A DNA stretch of 61,596 nucleotides, from the NCBI GenBank assembly GCA_030651285.1, contig JAUSCN010000018.1, forward strand, positions 1 through 61,596, given 5' to 3'. The DNA is from a bacterium. GTDB lineage: Bacteria > Patescibacteriota > Minisyncoccia > Phycocordibacterales > Phycocordibacteraceae. The translations under genes were made by a program, and so were the position numbers. Shown piece by piece: positions 9,720-31,877 of the stretch. Each line of letters starts with the position of its first letter. Position 1 is the first letter of the stretch. The notes beneath the pieces are model-generated. The model was not told the DNA's origin and did no database searches. It saw nothing but the letters and a program-made list of their open reading frames with translations.

Positions 9720-10730
9720 TTACACTGAAAAATTACTTACCGAATACAATTCATCTTCTGAAGGTTCATCTGGGGCAGCTGGTGTGACTGGGTCAAAATC
9801 ATCTGAAAGCTGTGTGGTGTTCGGGAAGACGGGCATAGCTGGGACTTGTTCTTGTGATACTTGGACCGCCATAACCTTCTCCTGCTGAGCTGCGCGAGCT
9901 GCAAGAGCTGCAGCAAGAGTCGAGAGGTCTTCGGGCGAGAAGAAATCAATAAGAAGGCGACCGCCCTCGGCATTCGTCTCAATGATGACGCGCGTGCCAA
10001 GCGTCTCGGTCAGAGACTTCTCAAGCTCTACCATGTCGGCAGACTTGCGATGATGATTGCGTACTCGCTCTTGTGCGATAGATCGCGCAATACGCTCTGC
10101 GGCACGGACTGGAAGCCGCTTAAGAATTATTTCCTTAAACAGAATCTCCCGCTCTTCAGGACGGCTATTGAGCGCGAGGAGCGGGCGCGCATGACCTTCG
10201 CTGATTTCCCTACCGACGATCGCGTTCTGCATATGCTCTGGGAGCGAAAGAAGGCGGAGACTGTTTGATACATATTCGCGGCTCTTGCCTATCTTTGCCG
10301 CAGTCTCGGCATGCGAAATACCAAATTCACTAATGAGTTTCTGTAGAGCTTTTGCACGATCAATTGCATTAAGGTCTTCACGCTGAATATTCTCGATGAT
10401 CGCGAGCTCGAGTTTTGTGAGATTGCTTTCTCCCTGACGAATAACCACTGGCAACTGCTTGAGTCCCGCAAGCTTGCTTGCACGCAAGCGGCGCTCACCA
10501 GCGATGAGCTCGTACACACTCTCCAAGCCGCCATCAGGCTTTTCTACCTCAGTGCGACTGACTACGAGCGGCTGCAATACACCATACTGGCGAATGCTTT
10601 CTGAGAGCGACCTAAGACCTTCTTCGCTAAACTCCTTGCGAGGTTGATACGGGTTCGGCACGATGCGATCGACGTCAATCCAGAAGACTGAGTCGTACTT
10701 GGTCGGGACATATCGCGCTTCTTCGTTCAT
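9720..10730 (-). CDS. parB: ParB/Spo0J-family chromosome partitioning protein
   Basis: ParB is a CTP-dependent DNA clamp that loads at parS and marks the origin region for segregation. The 336-aa product has the N-terminal ParB/Srx domain (IVPNPYQPRKEF, ELIAGERRLRASKLAG, ENIQREDLNAIDRAKAL) and the helix-turn-helix ISHAETAAKIGKSREYVSN. The start at 10730 (MNEEARYVPTK) is preferred: an in-frame extension upstream would run antisense through tRNA-Leu, and a -10 box lies 7 nt before it. The acidic C-terminal tail is poorly conserved. No parA neighbours it and I saw no canonical parS palindrome. Confidence 0.93.
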   Translation of the reverse strand: MNEEARYVPTKYDSVFWIDVDRIVPNPYQPRKEFSEEGLRSLSESIRQYGVLQPLVVSRTEVEKPDGGLESVYELIAGERRLRASKLAGLKQLPVVIRQGESNLTKLELAIIENIQREDLNAIDRAKALQKLISEFGISHAETAAKIGKSREYVSNSLRLLSLPEHMQNAIVGREISEGHARPLLALNSRPEEREILFKEIILKRLPVRAAERIARSIAQERVRNHHRKSADMVELEKSLTETLGTRVIIETNAEGGRLLIDFFSPEDLSTLAAALAARAAQQEKVMAVQVSQEQVPAMPVFPNTTQLSDDFDPVTPAAPDEPSEDELYSVSNFSV

Positions 10731-10737
10731 GAAAAAG

Positions 10738-10743
10738 ATTTTA
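10738..10743 (-). promoter_or_regulatory. Extended -10 box of parB
   Basis: On the minus strand TGCTAAAAT ends 7 nt before the parB ATG and carries the TGn extension. Confidence 0.45.
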
Positions 10744-10767
10744 GCATATGCTACTCTGCAACCTATA

Positions 10768-10849
10768 GCCGGGATGGCGGAATTGGTAGACGCAACGGAT
10801 TCAAAACCCGTCGTCGCAAGACATGAGAGTTCGATTCTCTCTCCCGGCA
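10768..10849 (+). tRNA. tRNA-Leu (anticodon CAA)
   Basis: A class II tRNA with long variable arm. Acceptor GCCGGGA pairs with TCCCGGC, the D-loop has GGTAGAC, the anticodon loop is TTCAAAA (CAA), and the T-arm has GTTCGATTC. The CCA end is not encoded. It lies divergently upstream of parB. Confidence 0.95.
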
Positions 10850-10895
10850 CAAACTGAGCGAAGTGATTTTTCCGCAGGTACGAGTTAAAAATCAA

Positions 10896-10923
10896 TTGAC
10901 TTTTAGTAAATAAGTGCTATCAT
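10896..10923 (+). promoter_or_regulatory. Promoter TTGACT-16 bp-TATCAT
   Basis: -35 TTGACT (10896-10901) and -10 TATCAT (10918-10923) with TGC extension precede the small membrane-protein gene at 10972. The leader is about 40 nt and ends in a strong TAAGGAGG ribosome-binding site. Confidence 0.7.
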
Positions 10924-10971
10924 GCACCTGGAGCACACTTACGCAACAGATCATTAACTAAGGAGGCGGGG

Positions 10972-11313
10972 ATGCTTGATAGTAAGGGGGTTATGTTCTT
11001 CAGATTTAACGGGGGGAGGATCGGATGGCTCATAGCCGATGCGCACGGGGTATTCTGCATCTGGACTTTAAAGCTGCTGATTGAGGCCTGTATCCTGTTC
11101 ATCGTGTTCGGCTTCACAGGCATCAGTCCTTACGAATTGGCTTCGAAGGTTGATACCATTGCAGGGAAATGGCTGAGTACTGGCTGGATATTTCTCCTCT
11201 CAATACTCTGGCCACTTCTGATCGCATTCATATACGTGTTCGTGTTGCGTCGTAACCCTACGGTTAAATCGGCGCAACGAGCACTGCCGTACACCCGATA
11301 CGGCTGGATCTAG
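10972..11313 (+). CDS. Small two-helix membrane protein, unknown function
   Basis: I do not recognise this 113-aa protein. Two hydrophobic helices are visible (about residues 29-50, TLKLLIEACILFIVFGF, and 70-90, WIFLLSILWPLLIAFIYVF), separated by a short loop, with a basic C-terminus. The gene has its own TTGACT promoter, a strong GGAGG site 8-12 nt before the ATG, and a terminator. It lies directly downstream of the tRNA-Leu(CAA) 3' end. Its expression signals differ from those of the surrounding housekeeping genes, which suggests an accessory cargo gene. Confidence 0.7.
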   Translation: MLDSKGVMFFRFNGGRIGWLIADAHGVFCIWTLKLLIEACILFIVFGFTGISPYELASKVDTIAGKWLSTGWIFLLSILWPLLIAFIYVFVLRRNPTVKSAQRALPYTRYGWI

Positions 11314-11378: not shown

Positions 11379-12038
11379 TTATAACTTCCCTACCAAGTCG
11401 AGACCTGGCTCGAGAGTGTCGCCTCCTGGCTCCCATGAAGCTGGGCACACCTGACCCTTATGCGTCTCCACGTACTGCGCTGCCTGAAGCTTGCGCAGTG
11501 TTTCTGAACCTCTGCGGCCGATAGAGTTATCATTGACCTCCATCGAACGCAATATGCCGGCAGGATCGATGATGAATGTGCCGCGAAGCGCAAGCCCCTC
11601 ATCAGGCGTAAGAACCACCTCACCACCCTCGATGAGCACCCCGAAAGCGGAGGTAATTTTTCCAGAAGGATCAGCAGCCATCGGGTATGCAATTTCTTTG
11701 ATACCTGCCGATGTATCATGCCAGGCTTTGTGCGTGAAGACCGTGTCTGTAGAGACTGAAATGATCTCGGCATTCAACTCTTGGAACTTCGGATATAGCT
11801 TCGCAAGCTCTTCGAGCTCAGTCGGACAGATGAAGGTGAAGTCTGCTGGGTAGAAAACGAGAATCGCCCACTTTCCTCGCAGCTGCGAGAGACTCATGGT
11901 CTTAACAGCGTCTTTATGATAGACCTCAAACTCAAAATCAGGCACCGTAGCGCCTACTTTCACCTGTGACGCGTAGTCGCGCACCACGTCGTGGAACTCG
12001 CCGCAATTTTCGCAATAGTTGCTTTTGGTATCTTTCAT
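11379..12038 (-). CDS. 2-Cys peroxiredoxin (AhpC/Prx1 type)
   Basis: This enzyme reduces hydrogen peroxide and organic peroxides through a thiol cycle. The peroxidatic Cys71 lies in FYPADFTFICPTE and the resolving Cys198 in GQVCPASW, as in typical 2-Cys enzymes. The start at 12038 (MKDTKSNYCENCGEFHDV) gives 219 aa and adds a ~20-residue N-terminal extension with a CENC pair not usual in AhpC, perhaps for metal or redox-partner binding. A TAATCT -10-like box lies 7 nt upstream. The thioredoxin reductase-like gene at 45512 could supply electrons through a thioredoxin; this is inference. Confidence 0.92.
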   Translation of the reverse strand: MKDTKSNYCENCGEFHDVVRDYASQVKVGATVPDFEFEVYHKDAVKTMSLSQLRGKWAILVFYPADFTFICPTELEELAKLYPKFQELNAEIISVSTDTVFTHKAWHDTSAGIKEIAYPMAADPSGKITSAFGVLIEGGEVVLTPDEGLALRGTFIIDPAGILRSMEVNDNSIGRRGSETLRKLQAAQYVETHKGQVCPASWEPGGDTLEPGLDLVGKL

Positions 12039-12079
12039 GATGTATAGATTACGTCGGTACCATGATACCATCGCGCTGA

Positions 12080-12913
12080 ATGAAGGCAAAAATCCTCATC
12101 ATTGCGGGACCCACCGCTTCAGGCAAATCCTCACGAGCAGTCGAGGAGGCTCTTGCACGCAATGGCGAAGTTATTTCGGTCGACTCCCGACAAGTGTATC
12201 GAGGACTCGACATCGGCACTGAAAAAGTCTCGAGCGTGGAAATGCGGGGCGTACCACACCACCTCATCGATATCCGCGACCCAGGAGAGAATTACTCCGC
12301 AGGAGACTTTGTCGCTGATGCGACTCGCCTGATCGAGGACATAACACATCGTGGGAAACTCCCAATCCTCGCAGGCGGAACGCATTTTTATTTTCATGCG
12401 CTCCTCTATGGTCTACCTGCAGTCGTAGACATGGACCCAGAGCTGCGAGAGGAACTTGAAAAGCTTTCTACTGAAGAATTAGCGGCGTGTGTAAAAAGTC
12501 TCGACCCGCGTCGCGCAGATGAGCTTGATCCGAAAAATCGCAGACGACTCATACGAGCGCTTGAGATCATTAATGCAAAAGGTAACGTTCCTGCACGCAC
12601 AAAGCCCGAACCTCTCTACGACGCCGAATGGATCATCATCAATCCAACGCGCGAAATACTGCGCGAGCGAATTGACGCACGATTGAAAACCACGATCGAA
12701 CGAGGACTCACAGACGAGGTCCGCGCAGTACGTGGGAAAGTCGGCGACACCCGACTAAACGAGCTCGGGCTCGAATACAGAATCATCGGAGAATATTTGC
12801 GAAAGGAACGGACTGAAGCATCCATAATTCCTGCTCTTTCAGCAAAACTCTGGCAATATGCGCGCCGCCAAAAAGCCTGGCTGCGCAAACTTCACGACGA
12901 AATCATTACGTAA
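12080..12913 (+). CDS. miaA: tRNA dimethylallyltransferase
   Basis: MiaA transfers the dimethylallyl group to A37 of tRNAs reading UNN codons. The P-loop GPTASGKS is at residues 10-17, followed by SVDSRQVYRGLDIGTEK and the HHLIDIRDP substrate-binding motif, then LAGGTHFYFHALLYGL and NRRRLIRALEI. The 277-aa length is close to the family minimum of ~300. A TACCAT -10-like box with upstream TG lies 8 nt before the ATG. The gene is divergent from the peroxiredoxin. The window's tRNA-Leu, Trp, Cys, Ser and Phe are plausible substrates. Confidence 0.94.
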   Translation: MKAKILIIAGPTASGKSSRAVEEALARNGEVISVDSRQVYRGLDIGTEKVSSVEMRGVPHHLIDIRDPGENYSAGDFVADATRLIEDITHRGKLPILAGGTHFYFHALLYGLPAVVDMDPELREELEKLSTEELAACVKSLDPRRADELDPKNRRRLIRALEIINAKGNVPARTKPEPLYDAEWIIINPTREILRERIDARLKTTIERGLTDEVRAVRGKVGDTRLNELGLEYRIIGEYLRKERTEASIIPALSAKLWQYARRQKAWLRKLHDEIIT

Positions 12914-12915
12914 CC

Positions 12916-14028
12916 TCACAGTGAAGACGCCTGTGTTGCAACTGCTGTCACATTTGCAACATAGTCCTGCGTTTCTTTAAGACCGCCCGGATTGGTTGGA
13001 CACTGCCAAGCTAGAAGACCAGGACAGTCAGAACTCGGTGCTAATGGCGGCTTTGTTCCATCTGCATTTAATCCGGTACCGACACCACCATTATATGCTG
13101 CGATTACATTCGAGACATCACCATTCACATTTCTATTCCGATAATTCGAAGCATACAATCTAACTCCAGCATTTATATTCGTAGCGGAATCTTGAAGGGC
13201 GGATACGCATGCTGCTGAGGGACTCGTATTTGATGATCCTGAACAGGCCGTAACACCTACTGTGGCAGCTGTCGTAGGCATGATCTGCATGAGACCTATA
13301 GCCCCCGCACTACTTCTTGCAAGCCTGTTTCCATTTGACTCAACACCGAGAATGCCAAGAAGTTGATTGCACTGATCGTTGATGTTCTGTTGAGCGGCCG
13401 CAGCACAAACTTGACTACGATAGTTGTTTGCAGATTCGGCTGCTGCAGTGACAGCACGCTGACTCAGAGTTGGCGTAAACCTTTGAACTGTCGGGATGGA
13501 CGGCGCGACTCTTGGGGGAACAGTAATCGAAGGGAGCGGAACTACGGTCACTGTGGGTCGGGCCGGGATCACTCCGCCCGTTATGCCTGCCTGAGGAAGG
13601 CACGCCGGAAATCCGCCAGAACCTATGAGGCTATACCAAGTTTCCCCTGGATTTTGTGGGTTGTACAACACCGCCATGACAGCATCGACAATCATCCATG
13701 CCGCAAGCGCAATAACAGTACCCACAATAGTATTTTGAAGAATACTTTTTGCCTTACTCATTCCCGCCGGATCAACTGGATTTACGACATACAGAAATCC
13801 AGAATACGCGATCATCAGCGGGGCGACGAAAACGATTGTGATCGTAAGAGCAAAACTGATTAAATTATTGATTACAGTCAGCACCATCCCCCAATTCGCA
13901 GCACAGTTCGCCTGTTCCTCAGGAATGATCGGGCCAAAAAATGGTATTCCGCTTGCCTGCGCAGCATATGGAATCGCAAAGGAACTCACAGCCACTAGGA
14001 GTGCAATAAAAGGAACTCGAAAACGCAT
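12916..14028 (-). CDS. T4SS pilin-like domain fused to a lytic transglycosylase
   Basis: A signal peptide (residues 1-25, ending YAAQAS) is followed by two hydrophobic helices (about 46-80 and 93-122) flanking VNPVDPAGMSKAKSIL, the pattern of VirB2-like T4SS pilins of CPR bacteria. After a Pro/Val-rich linker (about 150-190) comes a soluble-lytic-transglycosylase domain: LLGILGVESNGN with the catalytic Glu near 229, SAGAIGLMQIMP, NINAGVRLY and VIAAYNGGVGTG. The fusion suggests a membrane-anchored peptidoglycan cutter that makes space for a pilus. Four Cys in the outer domain may form disulfides. A TATGAT box lies 6 nt upstream. The gene converges with miaA, 2 bp between stops. Confidence 0.85.
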   Translation of the reverse strand: MRFRVPFIALLVAVSSFAIPYAAQASGIPFFGPIIPEEQANCAANWGMVLTVINNLISFALTITIVFVAPLMIAYSGFLYVVNPVDPAGMSKAKSILQNTIVGTVIALAAWMIVDAVMAVLYNPQNPGETWYSLIGSGGFPACLPQAGITGGVIPARPTVTVVPLPSITVPPRVAPSIPTVQRFTPTLSQRAVTAAAESANNYRSQVCAAAAQQNINDQCNQLLGILGVESNGNRLARSSAGAIGLMQIMPTTAATVGVTACSGSSNTSPSAACVSALQDSATNINAGVRLYASNYRNRNVNGDVSNVIAAYNGGVGTGLNADGTKPPLAPSSDCPGLLAWQCPTNPGGLKETQDYVANVTAVATQASSL

Positions 14029-25410: not shown

Positions 25411-26601
25411 ATGGGAACTCTGTTAAAAATCCTATTCTCTCCCCTATTCTTCTTCATGCAATGGCTTGCGGAAGAAGACATCCTCTTCACCACAGTGAAA
25501 GAAGGTACCGCAAAAGCCATTATGCGAGGCAAATCGTTTGAACGCTTCATAATGCGTTTTTCTGGATACCATCTCAACGATCCAACAAAAGATTGGTATC
25601 GACCAACGCTGGGGGAAGGCGACACTTTCAGGATAGTTCCAGAATGGGAAGTCCTGTATCACGGTAAGGAGAATAAGAATGGATTTAACTCGAAAGAACA
25701 ACAACGTGATGAGTACTACGACGATCGACCTTGGATCCTCAAGCACTTAGGTCTCTACTGGGTCGGATGGCCGTGGGCAAATAGCGTATATGTCTACCAA
25801 TTCGAATGGAGCGAGACACACCCCGAACAAAAAACTGGCAAGGAGGAGATTTCTCCCCGATCGGAGTGGTCCGACTTTGTTTTCGTTGCAGACTTTACGT
25901 ATGCAGTGATGACCGCAGGAGCGGAAACAAAAGATCGTATTCCAACCGACATCCTTACGCTCGTGACCGTTGCGGTGCGCAATCCGTACCGAACCCTCTT
26001 CAGCGGCGTCGATTGGATGCAACGAGTAACCTCCGCAATCAATCGCCACGTTCGTACTTTTGTCACCACCAAAGACTTCGATGAATTTATTTCTATCTCC
26101 AAAGGAGGTATGAATGAAGCAACGAAACTTTGGACAATTGAATTCTCAGATCCGATTAAAAGACTGACTGAATTCCTGGCTGATGAAAATGAAAAGACCA
26201 TATCTCCAAGAGGCTTAAAGGAGAGGTATGGCGTGGTAATTCGCACAGGCGACCTGCAGACAATCGAATTTTCCGGAACTGAAGATGCAAAGAAGAAACT
26301 CACAGAAGCTGCCACGCTAGTATATTTGGCGAATCAAAAAGCTACAGAAAAACAAATCGGCGCCACAGCAGATGCGGGTGCCATTAGAACCGTAGCAGCC
26401 AGCCAAGCTGATGCCCTGACCCAAAGACTCGCCGCAATAGAAAAATATGGCGATACCGGGAAACTACTAGCTCAGCTCGACGCGCTAGAAAAAGCTTCGG
26501 CCCATCCAAGCAATACCATTGTCTGGGCTAATAATCCTCTTATCTCTGCCCTAGCAGTACAGAGTAAGGAAGACGCGAAGAAAGGAGAAACGAAGCCATG
26601 A
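25411..26601 (+). CDS. SPFH/band 7-like membrane-associated protein
   Basis: This 396-aa protein has a short hydrophobic N-terminus (residues 4-18) and then a domain resembling SPFH/prohibitin proteins of CPR bacteria: EEDILFTTVKEGTAKAIMRG, GLYWVGWPWANSVYVY and PTDILTLVTVAVRNPYRTLF. The C-terminal part (about 285-370) is Ala/Glu/Gln-rich and probably helical (AEAATLVYLANQKATEKQIG-like), as in flotillin stalks. Such proteins form membrane-bound oligomeric rings; no function is proven here. The ATG follows a strong GGAGG. The stop overlaps the next gene by 4 nt. Confidence 0.72.
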   Translation: MGTLLKILFSPLFFFMQWLAEEDILFTTVKEGTAKAIMRGKSFERFIMRFSGYHLNDPTKDWYRPTLGEGDTFRIVPEWEVLYHGKENKNGFNSKEQQRDEYYDDRPWILKHLGLYWVGWPWANSVYVYQFEWSETHPEQKTGKEEISPRSEWSDFVFVADFTYAVMTAGAETKDRIPTDILTLVTVAVRNPYRTLFSGVDWMQRVTSAINRHVRTFVTTKDFDEFISISKGGMNEATKLWTIEFSDPIKRLTEFLADENEKTISPRGLKERYGVVIRTGDLQTIEFSGTEDAKKKLTEAATLVYLANQKATEKQIGATADAGAIRTVAASQADALTQRLAAIEKYGDTGKLLAQLDALEKASAHPSNTIVWANNPLISALAVQSKEDAKKGETKP

Positions 26602-27464
26602 ATCCACTCATTGTTTTGGTCGCAGTAGCGCTCGTAGTAGCTGTTACTATCGTTGTGGCAGTACTCGTTTATCTGCGTAACAAAAAAAAGAGGGAGCGCG
26701 GACGTACACAAAGTCCAGCGAAGTCAGTTACTGATTCTTCAAAAAAGTCTGAGACAATTCTTGAACTGATCAGAGGGAAAATCAATACCGGTTCAAAGGT
26801 CTTCTGGAATATTGCGACGATCATTACGATGATCGCACTATTCTTCTACCTGGGGACTGACTCGAAGATTGATCCTGCTGATGTAGGAATCCAGACATGG
26901 AACCACTGGATCCAGATTCTTATTGTATGGGGCGTCGTTGCTTTTCTCATTTGGCTCAATATCGAAGAGGAAAAGAAGGCTTCAAAACTATACAAGATGT
27001 GTGTCTGGACAGTTGCGGTACTTCTCATTGTCCTTCCTATGTGGGCATGGATTACAAGTCCGAGCCAGTCATCGGGAGTTAGGGCCAGCACTCAGAAAAC
27101 GCGATGCATGATGCCATTTACTGGTAACGCCTTTGCAGACCATCCAGCATTTGGACCTGATGGTGGCTATTCATCAAGAGACAAATGGCTTCCACTACGG
27201 ATTCGGCCTGGCGAGAACTCTTGCTTGGTAGAAAATCCTAAAGGCTCGGTAGAAAATCCCAAAGGCGGCCACATTGAGTGGGATTCTGAGGAACCCTCAA
27301 TTCACGACCTAGAAGTCAGTTGCTTATACGAACGCGGCGGCACAGGCAGCATCCGAACGGACGGCTGCAGAGGCGGGGTTGTCATTGCAGGATTCGTCCG
27401 CAACCCCACAGACACTCCAGTGACAGTGTGGTATGCGTATGCCAAGAACAAACCTTCGATATAG
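26598..27464 (+). CDS. Multispanning membrane protein coupled to the SPFH protein
   Basis: I do not recognise this 288-aa protein. Hydrophobic helices are visible at about residues 3-26, 70-88, 104-122 and 133-152, with a basic segment (RNKKKRERGRT) after the first. A Cys-containing outer domain (about 155-288) includes a short tandem repeat, VENPKGSVENPKGG, and ends near TDTPVTVWYAYAK. Translational coupling (ATGA overlap, AAAGGAG upstream) to the SPFH gene implies that the two act together, perhaps as a NfeD-like partner pair, although no NfeD motif is seen. Confidence 0.7.
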   Translation: MNPLIVLVAVALVVAVTIVVAVLVYLRNKKKRERGRTQSPAKSVTDSSKKSETILELIRGKINTGSKVFWNIATIITMIALFFYLGTDSKIDPADVGIQTWNHWIQILIVWGVVAFLIWLNIEEEKKASKLYKMCVWTVAVLLIVLPMWAWITSPSQSSGVRASTQKTRCMMPFTGNAFADHPAFGPDGGYSSRDKWLPLRIRPGENSCLVENPKGSVENPKGGHIEWDSEEPSIHDLEVSCLYERGGTGSIRTDGCRGGVVIAGFVRNPTDTPVTVWYAYAKNKPSI

Positions 27465-27480
27465 AGGAGATCTTTAATGA

Positions 27481-27528
27481 AAAAAGGGCCGCATGACAAC
27501 ATGTCATGCGGCCTCTTTCTTTTTCTCT
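27481..27528 (+). terminator. Strong terminator of the SPFH operon
   Basis: A perfect 12-bp stem, GGCCGCATGACA (27487-27498) with TGTCATGCGGCC (27502-27513), is followed by a T/C-rich tail. Confidence 0.85.
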
Positions 27529-27540
27529 CTCACTATTTCC

Positions 27541-27819
27541 CTATCTAGGAGCTGTAAGTGGAGCAACCTTTTGGTCAATATTGAAGGTTTTCAGCGCAAC
27601 GTTGATGATGCCGTACGCACCAAACATGACCACGAGACCAATGAGTCCCCAATAAATGGCCTGTCGCCCGGTCTCTCGAGCCTTGCCATCTCCAGCATCC
27701 TTTATGAACTCAAACACACCCCAGAGGAATGTGATGAAAGCACTAGCTACGAGAAGCAGAATGATTGGATTTACAATCTGTTCGACGACCTTTGCGAGAA
27801 ACTGCTCTAAGACAACCAT
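27541..27819 (-). CDS. VirB2-like pilin paralogue (T4SS-pilin type), PilA-like no. 6
   Basis: This 92-aa protein has two membrane helices (about 16-36 and 57-77) bracketing FLWGVFEFIKDAGDGKA and GRQAIYWGLIGLVVMF. The WGxxxFIxxxxD...G...WGLIG pattern is shared with the four preceding minus-strand genes. No signal peptide is evident. It is the last gene of the array, 20 nt after the previous one, and converges on the terminator of the SPFH operon. It is probably a minor subunit or a pilus assembly component. Confidence 0.72.
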   Translation of the reverse strand: MVVLEQFLAKVVEQIVNPIILLLVASAFITFLWGVFEFIKDAGDGKARETGRQAIYWGLIGLVVMFGAYGIINVALKTFNIDQKVAPLTAPR

Positions 27820-27839
27820 TTAGAAAAATAGTGTGCCCC

Positions 27840-28220
27840 TTATCGAATTGGAATGTTCGCCTGCGGAACGTTTTGTATCCGATTATTGCCACCGAAGCTA
27901 ACGGTGCCGATGAGGATGTTTACCAGCCCCCAGACCGAAACCATCACGAAGAAACCGATGAGGCCCCAGAGCATGAGGTTCTTTCCCTTAGTCTTCACTT
28001 CGTCATCATTTGCTCCGATGATGAATGTCTCAAATGCACCCCAAACGAACACGATGAATGCTATTGCAAAAATGACCGGTACGAATATGTTATTTATCGT
28101 ACTGACGATAAAATTACCAACGCCTTTAAGGTCGGTAACCTGAGTAGTCTGAGCAAAAGAAACGAGCGGGAGTGCGAGCGTTGCAAGAAATCCTGAAGTA
28201 AGGGCGAGAGCTTTTTTCAT
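27840..28220 (-). CDS. VirB2-like pilin with signal peptide, candidate major pilin
   Basis: The 126-aa precursor begins with a classical signal peptide (MKKALALTSGFLATLAL, cleavage near SFAQ). Mature helices lie at about 36-62 and 82-103, around FVWGAFETFIIGANDDEV and MLWGLIGFFVMVSVWGL. It is the only paralogue with its own strong promoter (28247-28274), which predicts higher expression than its neighbours, as expected for a major pilin. The start at 28220 is set by the signal sequence. The last pilin gene follows 20 nt downstream and is probably co-transcribed. Confidence 0.78.
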   Translation of the reverse strand: MKKALALTSGFLATLALPLVSFAQTTQVTDLKGVGNFIVSTINNIFVPVIFAIAFIVFVWGAFETFIIGANDDEVKTKGKNLMLWGLIGFFVMVSVWGLVNILIGTVSFGGNNRIQNVPQANIPIR

Positions 28221-28246
28221 AATATAGATAAGTGGGTAACGGGTTA

Positions 28247-28274
28247 ATTCTAACTTTGTGACAGATAGAGTCAA
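28247..28274 (-). promoter_or_regulatory. Internal promoter TTGACT-16 bp-TAGAAT of the pilin array
   Basis: On the minus strand -35 TTGACT (28274-28269) and -10 TAGAAT (28252-28247) lie ~26 nt before the ATG at 28220. Just upstream, TATCC / GGATA arms followed by AAATATAA form a weak terminator-like hairpin (about 28276-28300). Confidence 0.65.
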
Positions 28275-28310
28275 TTATATTTTATCCTCTTGTGGGGATA
28301 GGCCGAAGCT

Positions 28311-28613
28311 CTAGACAGTCGGCGGGGGCGGCGCAAGCTGATTCATGCCTGGACCCGCGGGACCGAGTAAGGTTCCGCCCACGATCCAGACCAATCCCCA
28401 GACGGACACAATGACTGCAAAACCAATGATGCCCCAAAGAACGAACAGTCGACCTTTTTCCCGATCACCATCACTGTCTGCACCAAGAATGAAATATTTA
28501 TATACTCCCCAAAAGAATGTAAGGAGCGCTATGGCCATAAGAATAGGTACCAGCACGAAGTTCACTATAGATAGTATCGCGTCTGTGTAGCCCCTTATGA
28601 TAGCTAGGTTCAT
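28311..28613 (-). CDS. VirB2-like pilin paralogue
   Basis: This 100-aa protein has helices at about 16-36 and 58-82 and the array motif FFWGVYKYFILGADSDGD followed by FVLWGIIGFAVIVSVWGL. It has a Pro/Gly-rich C-terminal tail (GPAGPGMNQLAPPPP). No cleavable signal is visible. It is spaced 16 nt from the preceding gene and separated from the next by 90 nt containing a new promoter, so it probably ends the upstream transcript. Confidence 0.75.
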   Translation of the reverse strand: MNLAIIRGYTDAILSIVNFVLVPILMAIALLTFFWGVYKYFILGADSDGDREKGRLFVLWGIIGFAVIVSVWGLVWIVGGTLLGPAGPGMNQLAPPPPTV

Positions 28614-28629
28614 GTCTTACAGGTTAATA

Positions 28630-29145
28630 TTACCTCCCTGGAATTATTCCTGGCCCAAACGTAGAATAGGATGTTGGTGTTGGTGGCGGCATCATTATGC
28701 CACCGAGACCAAACGTATTGACGACGACATTCACGAGACCCCAGACCGATACCATAGCGGCAAAACCGATAAGACCCCACAAGATTATCTTATGCCCGGT
28801 CTCAACGGCACCCTCATCGCCATTTGAAAAAATGTATGCTTTTGCAACACCGTACAAGAAAACTATGAACGATACCGCAAAGAGTACGGGGACCAGGACA
28901 CCATTGATGATAGCGAGAATGGTGATACCAACCCCCCAGACACCACCACCCATCGTCCCGCCACCTCCTCCGGGGAATATGCCAGAAAATCCGAAGGTTC
29001 CCATAGAGCCGCCGGAGAACCCCTGCACACCATCATACCGAAATGCCCCTGTACTTTGTTGTGCTAAAGCGAGAACAGGGACAAGGAGCATAACCAACAC
29101 CAAAGCAATCCTGCCGACTGATTTCATATGCGGTAAGTATGACAT
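28630..29145 (-). CDS. VirB2-like pilin paralogue with Gly-rich N-terminal domain
   Basis: The product is 171 aa, or 165 if it starts at the second ATG (MKSVGR, 29127), which places a signal peptide (IALVLVMLLVPVLALAQ) at the N-terminus. A Gly/Phe-rich segment (SGGSMGTFGFSGIFPGGGGG) precedes two helices containing FLYGVAKAYIFSNGDEGA and ILWGLIGFAAMVSVWGL. The Gly-rich insert is unique in the array and may extend from the pilus surface. The next upstream gene ends 1 nt before this start. Confidence 0.75.
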   Translation of the reverse strand: MSYLPHMKSVGRIALVLVMLLVPVLALAQQSTGAFRYDGVQGFSGGSMGTFGFSGIFPGGGGGTMGGGVWGVGITILAIINGVLVPVLFAVSFIVFLYGVAKAYIFSNGDEGAVETGHKIILWGLIGFAAMVSVWGLVNVVVNTFGLGGIMMPPPTPTSYSTFGPGIIPGR

Positions 29146-29146
29146 A

Positions 29147-29425
29147 TTATCTTCCTACGGGTGCAATTCCGAGCGTGGACAACAATATACCCACAAACCC
29201 CCACACAGAGAAGATGACTACTAGGCCGATAATTCCCCACAAGATGAAATGTCTTCCTTCTTCACGCTTCGTGTCATTGTCGCCATTAAGAAAGAAATAA
29301 CTCACCACGCCCCAGACAAATGCCGCGAAAGAAAATGCGATGATCAGTGGCACGACGACCGTATTCAGGACACCGATAATTCCTTCTGATCCCTTGCCGA
29401 TAAATTGAGCGAAGGTCATGGTCAA
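29147..29425 (-). CDS. VirB2-like pilin paralogue
   Basis: This 92-aa protein (90 from the second ATG) has helices at about 20-42 and 62-85, with FVWGVVSYFFLNGDNDTK and FILWGIIGLVVIFSVWGF. It overlaps the preceding pilin gene by 4 nt and is almost contiguous with the next, so co-expression is expected. No signal peptide is recognised. Confidence 0.75.
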   Translation of the reverse strand: MTMTFAQFIGKGSEGIIGVLNTVVVPLIIAFSFAAFVWGVVSYFFLNGDNDTKREEGRHFILWGIIGLVVIFSVWGFVGILLSTLGIAPVGR

Positions 29426-29958
29426 CTTCCGACAGATATCGCTTGAACAGTCGCCTCAATTCCAATAGCGATAGCTTTCGCACCAAGAAGTATCAGGGCC
29501 CCGATGACTGTCCAGAGGAGGGACTCACGCGCCTTAGAGATCTTGGCAGGATCGCCACGGGCCGTAACGAATTCAAAACCGACATACACGACCATCAGGA
29601 TAACCACGATTGTTCCGATGCGAATGACAAAGTCTAGAATGCTTGTGAGAAAAGACTCTAGATTCCCGCTTCCCTTGAGCGGATTCATGAGCCTGACGTT
29701 TTCAGGACCATTTCCTGATGACTGTGTCGGTGCCAGAGGTGTTAGTCTCGAAGATGAGGTTCTACAAACACCATATACATTTCCGGAAACACCGAACTCA
29801 TCAGTAGTAGCAACACAAGTTTGACCAGAAGGACATTCGTTATTTCCATAAAGCGAACACGACTGTGATGGGAGCTGAGCGTGTGCAATAGGCACATATG
29901 CAGACACCGCGCTCACGACAAGCGCGAGACTGAAGATCTGTACTATGAAAAATTGCAT
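29422..29958 (-). CDS. T4SS pilin-domain protein with Cys-rich N-terminal module
   Basis: The 178-aa precursor has a signal peptide (IFSLALVVSAVSAYV, cleavage near AHAQ) and a short Cys-rich module (CSLYGNNECPSGQTC...YGVC, about 33-65). Two C-terminal helices carry VTARGDPAKISKARESLLW, the other pilin subtype in this window, shared with the pilin/transglycosylase fusion at 12916 (NPVDPAGMSKAKS). The two subtypes may be structural and tip or adaptor subunits; this is inference. It starts 3 nt after the solute-binding protein gene ends. Confidence 0.78.
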   Translation of the reverse strand: MQFFIVQIFSLALVVSAVSAYVPIAHAQLPSQSCSLYGNNECPSGQTCVATTDEFGVSGNVYGVCRTSSSRLTPLAPTQSSGNGPENVRLMNPLKGSGNLESFLTSILDFVIRIGTIVVILMVVYVGFEFVTARGDPAKISKARESLLWTVIGALILLGAKAIAIGIEATVQAISVGS

Positions 29959-29961
29959 ATA

Positions 29962-31263
29962 TCAGTAAAGAGAGGTCAGAGAACTCTCGGCATCTGAAAG
30001 CGCCCCGCTCAGCTCTGAACGACCACTTATTACATCACTGATCATACCCGAAAAGACACGATCGACACCGACTGCCGCTGGGGACAGCCACCCTTCGCTA
30101 TAGAGAGCGCTAGCATATGACACTGCCGCGACAGGATCAGAAGATGACACGTTCTCAAGCGCACCGATGTTTGCTGGAGCAAGCCCGGTCGCCGTGGCTG
30201 ACGCAGACTGTTCGTTAGTATTGGCAAAAAGCGCGGCGACTTGATATGCACCTGAAGCATTTTTTGCCCCGCGGGAGATCATGAACGCATAAAGCAGGCC
30301 ATAGGTGCGCTTCACCTTAGACACGCCACTTTGTGGCAGCAGTGAAGTGGTGAAATCCAGATTTGGATTTGCCGTCTTGAGAAAATGTGCGCGAGAAGCG
30401 TAGCCGATGTAGAGCGCAAGATCGCCCGAAATGAACATCTGCTCGGAATCTGGCAACGAGCTGTTCCAGGTGTAAGACACCTTTGAAGGGTCCGCAAACT
30501 GAGTATAGAAACCGAGCACCGAGGAACCGTCGGCGCCATTCTTTTTTGAGTCGCTACCCAGATCAGCACCAATGGTCCCACTCGTAGAATATGCAGTCAT
30601 CGGAATCCCTTGCTGCAAGAAGAGCGCTGAGAGTATTCCTCGCGCATTACGCACATTGTTATAAGTACCGAGCCCTATGAGGCCGCGTGTGACTTGCCGT
30701 GTCGGCGTGAGCGCAGCGATATTTGGTACAAGACCGATAAGACCCTCCCATGTAGCTGGTGGCCTCGGGATGCCGCTGTTTGAAAGGATGGCGCGATTAG
30801 AGAAAAGAACCAGCGGATCGACGAGAAACGGCATGCCGTAGTACCCCTGCCCGGCTGGAGCCGTAAATACTTCTCCTTCCTTGATGAAGGTATTGGTAAA
30901 TGTATTTACGGGAAGCGAAGAGTTCGGTATCGGCTGGATAAATTTCGTGAGCCCATACAGCTCTTCCTGTGAAGCGAGCACGAGATCTGGTGAAGAACCG
31001 GTCGCTATCGAAACAGCCATATCTGAAGCAAGCGTTGCCGGATTTTTCTCTATATATGAGACATTTTTAAATGCTGCATCTACCTTTGTCGCTTCCGCAA
31101 GCGTATTCTGCATGTCTTTCTGCGGTAATGTGCCCCATATCACAACCGCGCCGACTCCGCCGGCACCTCCGCTACTCGTATATGTCGCGAACACGAAAAG
31201 CCCGATGAGCGCACTCATGCCAAATACGCTGAGGAAAATAGTTTGGAAAAGAGATAATTTCAT
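29962..31263 (-). CDS. Membrane-anchored extracellular solute-binding protein, orphan
   Basis: This 433-aa protein resembles family 1 (sugar-type) solute-binding proteins: VVIWGTLPQKDMQ, IATGSSPDLVLASQEEL, GMPFLVDPLVLFSNRAIL, PRPPATWEGLI and DSEQMFISGDLALYIGY. A single N-terminal helix (about 7-27) without a lipobox suggests an uncleaved anchor. No ABC permease or ATPase lies nearby; instead the gene sits between a methyltransferase (4-nt overlap) and the pilin genes (3-nt gap). This tight linkage suggests that it binds a glycan or other ligand for the pilus system, or contributes a surface adhesin. Confidence 0.85.
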   Translation of the reverse strand: MKLSLFQTIFLSVFGMSALIGLFVFATYTSSGGAGGVGAVVIWGTLPQKDMQNTLAEATKVDAAFKNVSYIEKNPATLASDMAVSIATGSSPDLVLASQEELYGLTKFIQPIPNSSLPVNTFTNTFIKEGEVFTAPAGQGYYGMPFLVDPLVLFSNRAILSNSGIPRPPATWEGLIGLVPNIAALTPTRQVTRGLIGLGTYNNVRNARGILSALFLQQGIPMTAYSTSGTIGADLGSDSKKNGADGSSVLGFYTQFADPSKVSYTWNSSLPDSEQMFISGDLALYIGYASRAHFLKTANPNLDFTTSLLPQSGVSKVKRTYGLLYAFMISRGAKNASGAYQVAALFANTNEQSASATATGLAPANIGALENVSSSDPVAAVSYASALYSEGWLSPAAVGVDRVFSGMISDVISGRSELSGALSDAESSLTSLY

Positions 31264-31796
31264 GGGGCGGTAAATACTATGCCGTAATGATGCGGACCGG
31301 CACGAAATGATTTTACTTTATGAAAGCCACCATTGATAAAAACTTCTTCGGCTGCATGTTCCGACACGACTTTATCTGCTGTCGGACCCATGCCGCCATA
31401 GCTCCCCGCCCAATCAACGACGAGCAGCTTGCCACCCGGGATCAACACACGCTTTATTTCTGCCAAAAGTCCTGGACGATCATCAATCTGGAAGAGCGTA
31501 TTCGCGAGTATGACTGCGTCGAGCGACTTGTCGTGTAGGTGCGTACCACCCAACTTCTCCACATCGCCCCAGACCGTTTCGATCGTAGACTGGTGATGCA
31601 CGTGGGTATTGAGCTTCAGGTGCTTCAATATTTCCTGCTGCACATCAATCGCATATACTCTGCCGGAACTTCCGACAACAGCTGCTGCTGCGCGAGAATA
31701 GTGACCCGAACCCGCACCGAAGTCGCCGACTTTCATGCCTTCGCGCAGCCCGAACTGGAGCACATTCTCGTGCGGTGCACTGAAAGAAACACTCAT
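31260..31796 (-). CDS. Class I SAM-dependent methyltransferase
   Basis: This 178-aa protein has motif I VGDFGAGSGHYSRAAA, motif II YAIDVQQEILKHL, and post-motifs LDAVILANTLFQIDD and LIPGGKLLVVDW, matching small UbiE/methyltransf_11-type enzymes. The substrate is unknown. It begins the pilin operon, overlaps the solute-binding protein start by 4 nt, and has an extended -10 box directly upstream. Modification of a pilus component or cell-envelope lipid is possible but speculative. Confidence 0.85.
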   Translation of the reverse strand: MSVSFSAPHENVLQFGLREGMKVGDFGAGSGHYSRAAAAVVGSSGRVYAIDVQQEILKHLKLNTHVHHQSTIETVWGDVEKLGGTHLHDKSLDAVILANTLFQIDDRPGLLAEIKRVLIPGGKLLVVDWAGSYGGMGPTADKVVSEHAAEEVFINGGFHKVKSFRAGPHHYGIVFTAP

Positions 31797-31847: not shown

Positions 31848-31877
31848 GCCGGATCATCCTATATAGAATGATCCGGC
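31848..31877 (-). terminator. Hairpin after the small wHTH gene
   Basis: A perfect 10-bp stem, GCCGGATCAT (31848-31857) with ATGATCCGGC (31868-31877), follows the wHTH gene. The T-tract is poor, so it may be a terminator or an RNA-stabilising hairpin. Confidence 0.5.

Follow-up and report, generated by a model that had tools for sequence, protein, structure and literature searches.

An orphan solute-binding protein leads a VirB2-like pilin array in a Kaiserbacteria-type Patescibacterium

Gene organization of the locus

The stretch of DNA analysed here (61,596 nucleotides, hereafter the window) belongs to a Kaiserbacteria-type Patescibacterium and carries, between positions 27541 and 31796, a single tight run of eight genes, all on the (-) strand, that comprises a methyltransferase, a solute-binding protein (SBP) and six VirB2-like pilins, with intergenic gaps of -4 to 90 nt. 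This gene content, its position and the overlap of the first two genes had been put forward in an earlier sequence-only reading, and all were verified. The class I SAM methyltransferase (31260..31796 (-); Methyltransf_11, Pfam E 6.3e-17) overlaps the start of the SBP gene by 4 nt (31260-31263). The gyrA-methyltransferase-SBP order is found class-wide, the methyltransferase remains adjacent to the pilins in class relatives that have lost the SBP, and this gene is probably an operon passenger. A terminator-like stem-loop with a 13-pair stem lies upstream of the methyltransferase, at the operon boundary (31848..31877 (-)), and another, with a 12-pair stem followed by a T run, lies at the end of the array (27487..27513 (-)). 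For the two genes that converge on the array (25411-27464), neither Pfam nor NCBIfam gave a confident family.

The six pilins

Five of the six pilins score above the Pfam T4SS_pilin cut-off of 26.6 bits, and the NCBIfam pilin matches are weaker than the Pfam ones. Pilin 1 (29422..29958 (-)) is of the DPAxxSKA/TrbC type, with a signal peptide and a Cys-bearing N-terminal extension; it matches both T4SS_pilin (31.4 bits) and TrbC (29.1 bits) and falls in a deep tree clade, 'first'. Pilin 2 (29147..29419 (-); 37.9 bits) is of the WGLIG type, lacks a signal peptide and probably starts at ATG 29419. Pilin 3 (P0004; 28630..29145 (-)), which carries a signal peptide and a Gly-rich N-terminal extension and may start at 29127, is the one that stays below the cut-off (17.6 bits); despite this score, it clusters in the pilin tree with same-position orthologues from relatives. 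Pilin 4 (28311..28613 (-); 34.3 bits) has a plain form in this locus and long Cys-rich extensions in relatives, with lengths of 96-370 aa in the genus and the least conserved core of the six (53% identity in the genus). Pilin 5 (27840..28220 (-); 40.2 bits) has a signal peptide and the most conserved core (79% in the genus), and pilin 6 (27541..27819 (-); 27.1 bits), the shortest and without a signal peptide, closes the array in a clade of its own, 'last'.

In a tree of 219 pilins, the DPAxxSKA type separates from the WGLIG types with an SH-aLRT of 95, and each array position forms its own orthologue group in the genus. The two subtypes of VirB2/T4SS-pilin-like proteins proposed from sequence alone were thus recovered by Pfam profiles and tree alike, and the suggested specialization of subunits gains support from pilin positions being stable orthologues. 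Antigenic shuffling of pilins is not favoured in this genus, since every position forms a separate group.

The structure model of pilin 5 is a two-helix hairpin, which is compatible with VirB2 and also with other small membrane proteins. A fold search with the pilin model returned generic hairpins with no clear PDB match, the Aeropyrum conjugation pilus (8dfu) appearing with a Z of 7.0, not above unrelated entries, and searching PDB sequences with the pilin profile gave nothing convincing. It could be argued from such a generic hairpin that the six small proteins are two-helix membrane proteins with another function. However, this is highly improbable considering the matches to Pfam and, more weakly, NCBIfam pilin models, the TrbC match of pilin 1, the adjacency of pilins to VirB4 in relatives, and the fact that a T4SS with such a pilin array is essential in a cultured Saccharibacterium, the pilins of the published cluster included (PMC10633639).

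The pilin 5 promoter

A predicted promoter, TTGACT - 16 nt - TAGAAT (28247..28274 (-)), precedes pilin 5 and is kept in 36 of 46 relatives, while only one match, at a pilin 1, was found upstream of other pilins (231 compared). The TTG at 28274, a seeming start codon, belongs to the -35 box of this promoter, and the start of pilin 5 was therefore placed at ATG 28220. Since pilin 5 is the sole pilin with a conserved promoter of its own, it is probably the major subunit. Additionally, a DnaA-box-like motif, CTATCCCCA (28293..28301 (-)), lies upstream of the promoter; it is present in 35/46 relatives, almost always 79-83 nt ahead of the pilin 5 start codon, and is found upstream of no other pilin in the 46 relatives compared.

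An orphan solute-binding protein

The SBP (29962..31263 (-)) is an orphan sugar-type protein (SBP_bac_8/SBP_bac_1, Pfam E 4.8e-19) and the only PF01547 (SBP_bac_1) match in the genome. It is predicted to be membrane-anchored by an N-terminal TM helix (residues 5-27), where in some other classes a lipid anchor is predicted. Its AF2 model (pLDDT 92.8) adopts the MBP fold, and its best structural match is the maltooligosaccharide-binding protein 7bvt (Z 35.6, 367 aligned residues, rmsd 2.9). D149, N156, N203 and Q217 are among the residues that are near-invariant phylum-wide; D149 aligns with the E of VEALSLIYN in MBP. This near-invariance may mean that a small ligand is retained. On the other hand, the sugar-stacking Trp of canonical relatives is replaced by Ser290, and is Ser in this order, so that a sugar ligand is not assured. 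In other classes, this position is mostly Tyr in pilin-linked loci and Trp in 8 of the 11 pilin-less ones.

Compared with the SBPs of sugar ABC importers (MalE, UgpB, GacH), the protein shares fold and family profile and differs in being an orphan, in its N-terminal TM anchor, in its link to pilins and in Ser290. No sugar-type permease was found in the genome, whose single PF00528 match is TauC/SsuC-like, lies far away and does not form a MalF/MalG pair; PF00528 permeases are also absent from 13 of the 19 SBP-bearing relatives searched. This search bears out the earlier claim of an SBP without a transporter and indicates that the protein would not be working as an importer's receptor. Ordinary uptake, with the SBP serving an ABC importer encoded elsewhere or of an unrecognised type, would suit its fold and family and the one permease-ATPase pair that the genome holds, but both the kind of that permease and the missing PF00528 proteins in relatives make it very unlikely.

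T4SS core genes elsewhere in the genome

The pilin array (contig C17) and the T4SS core lie on different contigs, the latter being a cluster of PrgI, a TrsD-like protein and VirB4 adjoining dnaA on contig C11. VirB4 was recognised by P-loop_TraG (91 bits) and PrgI by its own profile (40.7 bits); the 212-aa protein between them has no Pfam match and is called TrsD-like by position and conservation only. It had been stated that no T4SS ATPase is present, which holds for the window but not for the genome, where the virB4 homologue that the same reading had proposed to look for was located. The VirB4 family occurs in 39/40 relatives tested. In one relative (G109, locus L229), an SBP, two pilins, PrgI, TrsD and VirB4 form one run, which among the sampled loci is the only case of an SBP directly adjoining virB4, and in another (G393, locus L268) four pilins lead straight into PrgI-TrsD-VirB4.

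VirB2 arrays of Patescibacterial T4SS have already been published (PMC12102498, Quinonero-Coronel 2025; PMC10633639, Wang 2023, on Ca. Southlakia epibionticum). The present system resembles them in its tandem of divergent pilins (2-11 per array, PF18895/PF04956), with a within-array identity of 20-48% against published values of 25% on average and 54% at most, and in the presence of PrgI, TrsD-like and VirB4 genes near dnaA in the genome. It differs in that its array is led by an SBP and lies on a different contig from virB4; such distance is not strictly disqualifying, because a pilin gene is found near virB4 in 1135 of 1948 assemblies (PMC12102498). The MPF_FATA conjugation machinery of Gram-positive bacteria also has PrgI and VirB4 in its core locus, but the published Gram-positive systems lack VirB2 pilins, unlike the separate six-pilin array described here. 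Pilins in the array together with VirB4 and PrgI elsewhere in the genome therefore point to a pilin array of the Patescibacterial T4SS already published, here in dispersed form. The VirB2-like pilins and transporter-less SBP of the initial description are upheld. The part that appears new is the orphan SBP: the main texts of PMC12102498 and PMC10633639 make no mention of one, and no report of solute-binding proteins with CPR pili, or with Parcubacteria or Saccharibacteria pilins, was found in the literature searched, although a supplementary table may list one.

Conservation of the SBP-pilin linkage

The SBP is present in 173 of 189 class genomes and is followed by pilins in 60/60 sampled loci of the same class (40/40 from the order and 20/20 others), as well as in 29 of 40 SBP loci sampled from other classes of the phylum. 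The linkage, proposed for checking across CPR genomes, is thus not confined to this locus, and its phylum-wide recurrence, with the same order in all class loci, rules out a local accident. In most loci, the genes of the SBP and pilin 1 are separated by -4 to about 30 nt, and across the phylum the pair has two upstream contexts, gyrA-methyltransferase and galU-like. In the remaining 11 of the 40 loci from other classes, no pilin adjoins the SBP, and in some of them a sortase does. All 16 SBP-less class genomes retain a VirB4 match and 15 retain pilins, several showing gyrA, methyltransferase and pilins with nothing of an SBP in between. Co-occurrence as a proof of partnership consequently failed, since absence of the SBP does not go along with absence of pilins or VirB4. 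The SBP appears, from these comparisons, to be evolutionarily dispensable, because the methyltransferase and the pilins persist in some class genomes that lack it, and such losses count against an obligatory partnership.

These losses, the SBPs found beside a sortase and the housekeeping-like methyltransferase in the same operon would fit simple co-regulation, in which SBP and pilins are separate surface functions needed on the same occasion and placed in one transcription unit without physical partnership. This is possible but doubtful, given that the SBP-pilin order outlasts the change of upstream partner across the phylum and that the pair lies beside VirB4 in G109. The SBP fold could alternatively act as an assembly factor, serving the six hydrophobic pilins as a chaperone or docking protein outside the cytoplasm, and its ligand site would then be vestigial or bind pilin peptides. 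Its gene position immediately ahead of pilin 1 and the Ser at the stacking position agree with such a role, which is nevertheless unlikely considering that pilin arrays survive without the SBP and that the near-invariant residues may mark a ligand still bound.

Proposed role of the array

The pairing of SBP and pilins over much of the phylum suggests that the SBP is part of the pilus machine rather than of an ordinary nutrient importer. We regard it as moderately probable that a chromosomal Patescibacterial T4SS has its VirB2-type pilin array at this locus, together with a dedicated SBP through which host recognition or capture is coupled to the T4SS. The array would sit apart from its engine (PrgI/VirB3-like, TrsD-like and VirB4) near dnaA; pilin 5 would supply most subunits through its own promoter, and pilins 1-4 and 6 would be position-specific minor subunits, some bearing surface domains. 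The SBP, extracytoplasmic and held in the membrane by its N-terminal helix, would bind a ligand of host origin (probably a glycan) at the pilus base or surface, and this binding would be coupled to the T4SS. An SBP tied to the array is a concrete target that would help to tell apart host recognition, feeding and injection by the T4SS, and is relevant to how host-dependent bacteria obtain what they need from the host cell. It is distinctly unlikely, by comparison, that the T4SS is itself a nutrient-capture device, in which the membrane-held SBP would load host ligands into the multi-subunit VirB2 pilus or next to it, in place of ABC importers, and the major pilin, with its own promoter, would possibly be under DnaA-linked control.

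Organization of the locus

The methyltransferase, the sugar-type solute-binding protein (SBP) and the six pilin-like genes that the sequence-only reading had described at 27541-31796 were confirmed, including their order and the overlap, which measures 4 nt; all lie on the minus strand. The class I methyltransferase gene (31260-31796, -) is transcribed first and overlaps the SBP gene (29962-31263, -), which is followed by six small membrane proteins, namely pilin 1 (29422-29958, -), pilin 2 (29147-29419, -), pilin 3 (28630-29145, -), pilin 4 (28311-28613, -), pilin 5 (27840-28220, -) and pilin 6 (27541-27819, -). Five of the six passed the curated Pfam T4SS_pilin cut-off, pilin 1 also passing TrbC/VirB2, and pilin 3 scored 17.6 bits, under the 26.6-bit cut-off; matches to the NCBIfam mycoplasma conjugal pilin model were below threshold. 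gyrA lies upstream of the unit. Terminator-like stem-loops bound it upstream (31848-31877) and at the end of the array (27487-27513), which is weak evidence, since shuffled sequence yields about as many such sites as the whole region. Convergent with the array are two genes that overlap each other (25411-27464, +; 396 and 288 aa); the 396-aa one has a weak SPFH/Band 7 match, and the pair occupies the same place in several relatives. The host genome comprises 855 kb in 30 contigs, the window being contig C17; among named records, those of Kaiserbacteria and other Paceibacteria are the closest.

Conservation and loss of the SBP-pilin linkage

The SBP was present in 92 of 99 relatives, in 173 of 189 genomes from across the class, and in 216 of 287 over the phylum, where the profile used may also catch other SBPs. 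Linkage was checked in 100 SBP-bearing loci (40 from the host order, 20 from the outer class and 40 from other classes). In the order and the outer class, a pilin on the same strand followed the SBP within 4 kb in 40/40 and 20/20 loci, respectively, at a distance of at most 200 nt in 57 of these 60, and the class-wide gene order is gyrA-methyltransferase-SBP-pilins. In other classes, pilins lie downstream in 29 of the 40 SBP loci, where a galU-like nucleotidyltransferase usually replaces the methyltransferase; the remaining 11 had no pilin nearby, and some of them adjoin a sortase. The SBP-pilin linkage is old. Among pilin-less lineages, a related SBP stands directly behind a sortase-like gene in loci L210, L212, L214 and L225, followed in L210 by a large PKD-domain surface protein.

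In the 16 SBP-less genomes of the class, SBP loss did not track machine loss: a VirB4 match was found in 16/16 and pilins in 15/16. In several of them gyrA-methyltransferase runs straight into the pilins, and six such loci (L250, L251, L253, L256, L258 and L261) are natural SBP losses; L250 also carries a 1387-aa ORF that includes a pilin domain. Because SBP-less genomes keep VirB4 and mostly the pilins, the SBP is an accessory, not obligate, part of the array. The earlier proposal of a possible multi-pilin filament carrying or served by a ligand-binding protein is partly supported, through the conserved linkage and the distinct pilins, and the loss of the SBP in some relatives speaks against an obligatory partnership. 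An SBP associated with these pilins is not mentioned in the literature searched, and the novelty of the link is provisional, since supplementary tables and most subscription papers lay outside that search.

Properties of the SBP

The AlphaFold2 model of the SBP (mean pLDDT 92.8) adopts an MBP-type fold, superposing on 7bvt with Z 35.6 and rmsd 2.9 over 367 residues, and, judged by length and hydrophobicity, its N-terminal helix 5-27 looks like a membrane anchor. The SBP is the sole SBP_bac_1 match in its genome. A classical importer role is unlikely, because the only PF00528 permease there is TauC/SsuC-like by sequence and ATPase neighbour, and none was found in 13 of 19 SBP-bearing genomes searched (G100, a relative lacking the SBP, was also searched and is not counted). 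Across 88 pilin-linked SBP sequences, P92, D93, D149, N156, G199, Q217, F256, Y264 and F277 are 98-100% conserved. By alignment, the position that holds the sugar-stacking Trp in canonical relatives is Ser in the host order and usually Tyr where pilins are linked in other classes, which suggests that the ligand may have changed relative to canonical sugar binders; in pilin-less loci this position is Trp in 8/11.

Specialization of the pilins

The proposed diversification of the pilins was borne out in a tree of 219 sequences, in which, despite a short alignment and many unresolved forks, the first-position type splits from the remainder (SH-aLRT 95), pilins of each array position group together within the genus, and position labels require 32 changes, compared with a mean of 106 after shuffling. 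The six pilins are not interchangeable. Within the window, identity between paralogues is 20-48%; between orthologues, compared over 13 genomes of the genus, core identity is 79% for pilin 5 and only 53% for pilin 4, and N-terminal length and cysteine count vary most in pilins 1 and 4. The third pilin of L039 (232 aa) and the second of L188 (219 aa) are each a single ORF that encodes a tandem pair of pilin-type hairpins.

Pilin 5, probably the major subunit, follows a wide gap that holds a sigma-70-like promoter, which reads TTGACT-16-TAGAAT in the window and was found in 36/46 relatives. Upstream of this promoter stands the motif [CT]TATCC[AC]CA (28293-28301), found in 35/46 and in nearly all cases 79-83 nt ahead of the start codon. 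At the other five pilin positions the motif was found at none and a promoter match at one gene only (binomial P 1e-82, computed ignoring relatedness). Similar to a DnaA box, this motif also lies near dnaA in some relatives, around dnaA/dnaN in loci L083, L085 and L086, and replication-linked control of the major pilin is a possible lead only.

Relation to the type IV secretion system

The sequence-only reading found no T4SS ATPase at the locus and called for a virB4/virB6 search; this absence does not extend beyond the locus, as a VirB4-family ATPase occurs in 39/40 genomes tested; the host genome carries one on contig C11. On that contig PrgI (40.7 bits) is followed in a row by a 212-aa TrsD-like protein, VirB4 (91 bits) and a pilin-like protein, with yidC, dnaA and dnaN, all three named by eye from sequence, a few genes further on. 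This arrangement matches the published Patescibacterial T4SS (PMC12102498). Additionally, in one relative (G109, L229) the SBP and two pilins lie in a single run with PrgI, TrsD and VirB4, and in another (G393, L268) four pilins run into PrgI-TrsD-VirB4. The array is therefore most plausibly a dispersed component of this T4SS. Pilin arrays with 2-11 divergent members have already been published, and growth of Ca. Southlakia epibionticum requires its six-pilin array (PMC10633639, PMC12857230).

Within the T4SS core, the VirB4-yidC interval of L083 holds two conserved proteins, one secreted (10105-11091, 328 aa) and one membrane-anchored without a Pfam match (11820-13019, 399 aa). In the window, a 370-aa ORF (12916-14028, -) is a predicted VirB2-VirB1-like fusion with a signal peptide and two domains, one T4SS_pilin-like (25.5 bits, just below the cut-off, in one search and 28.7, above it, in another) and the other an SLT transglycosylase (56.6 bits).
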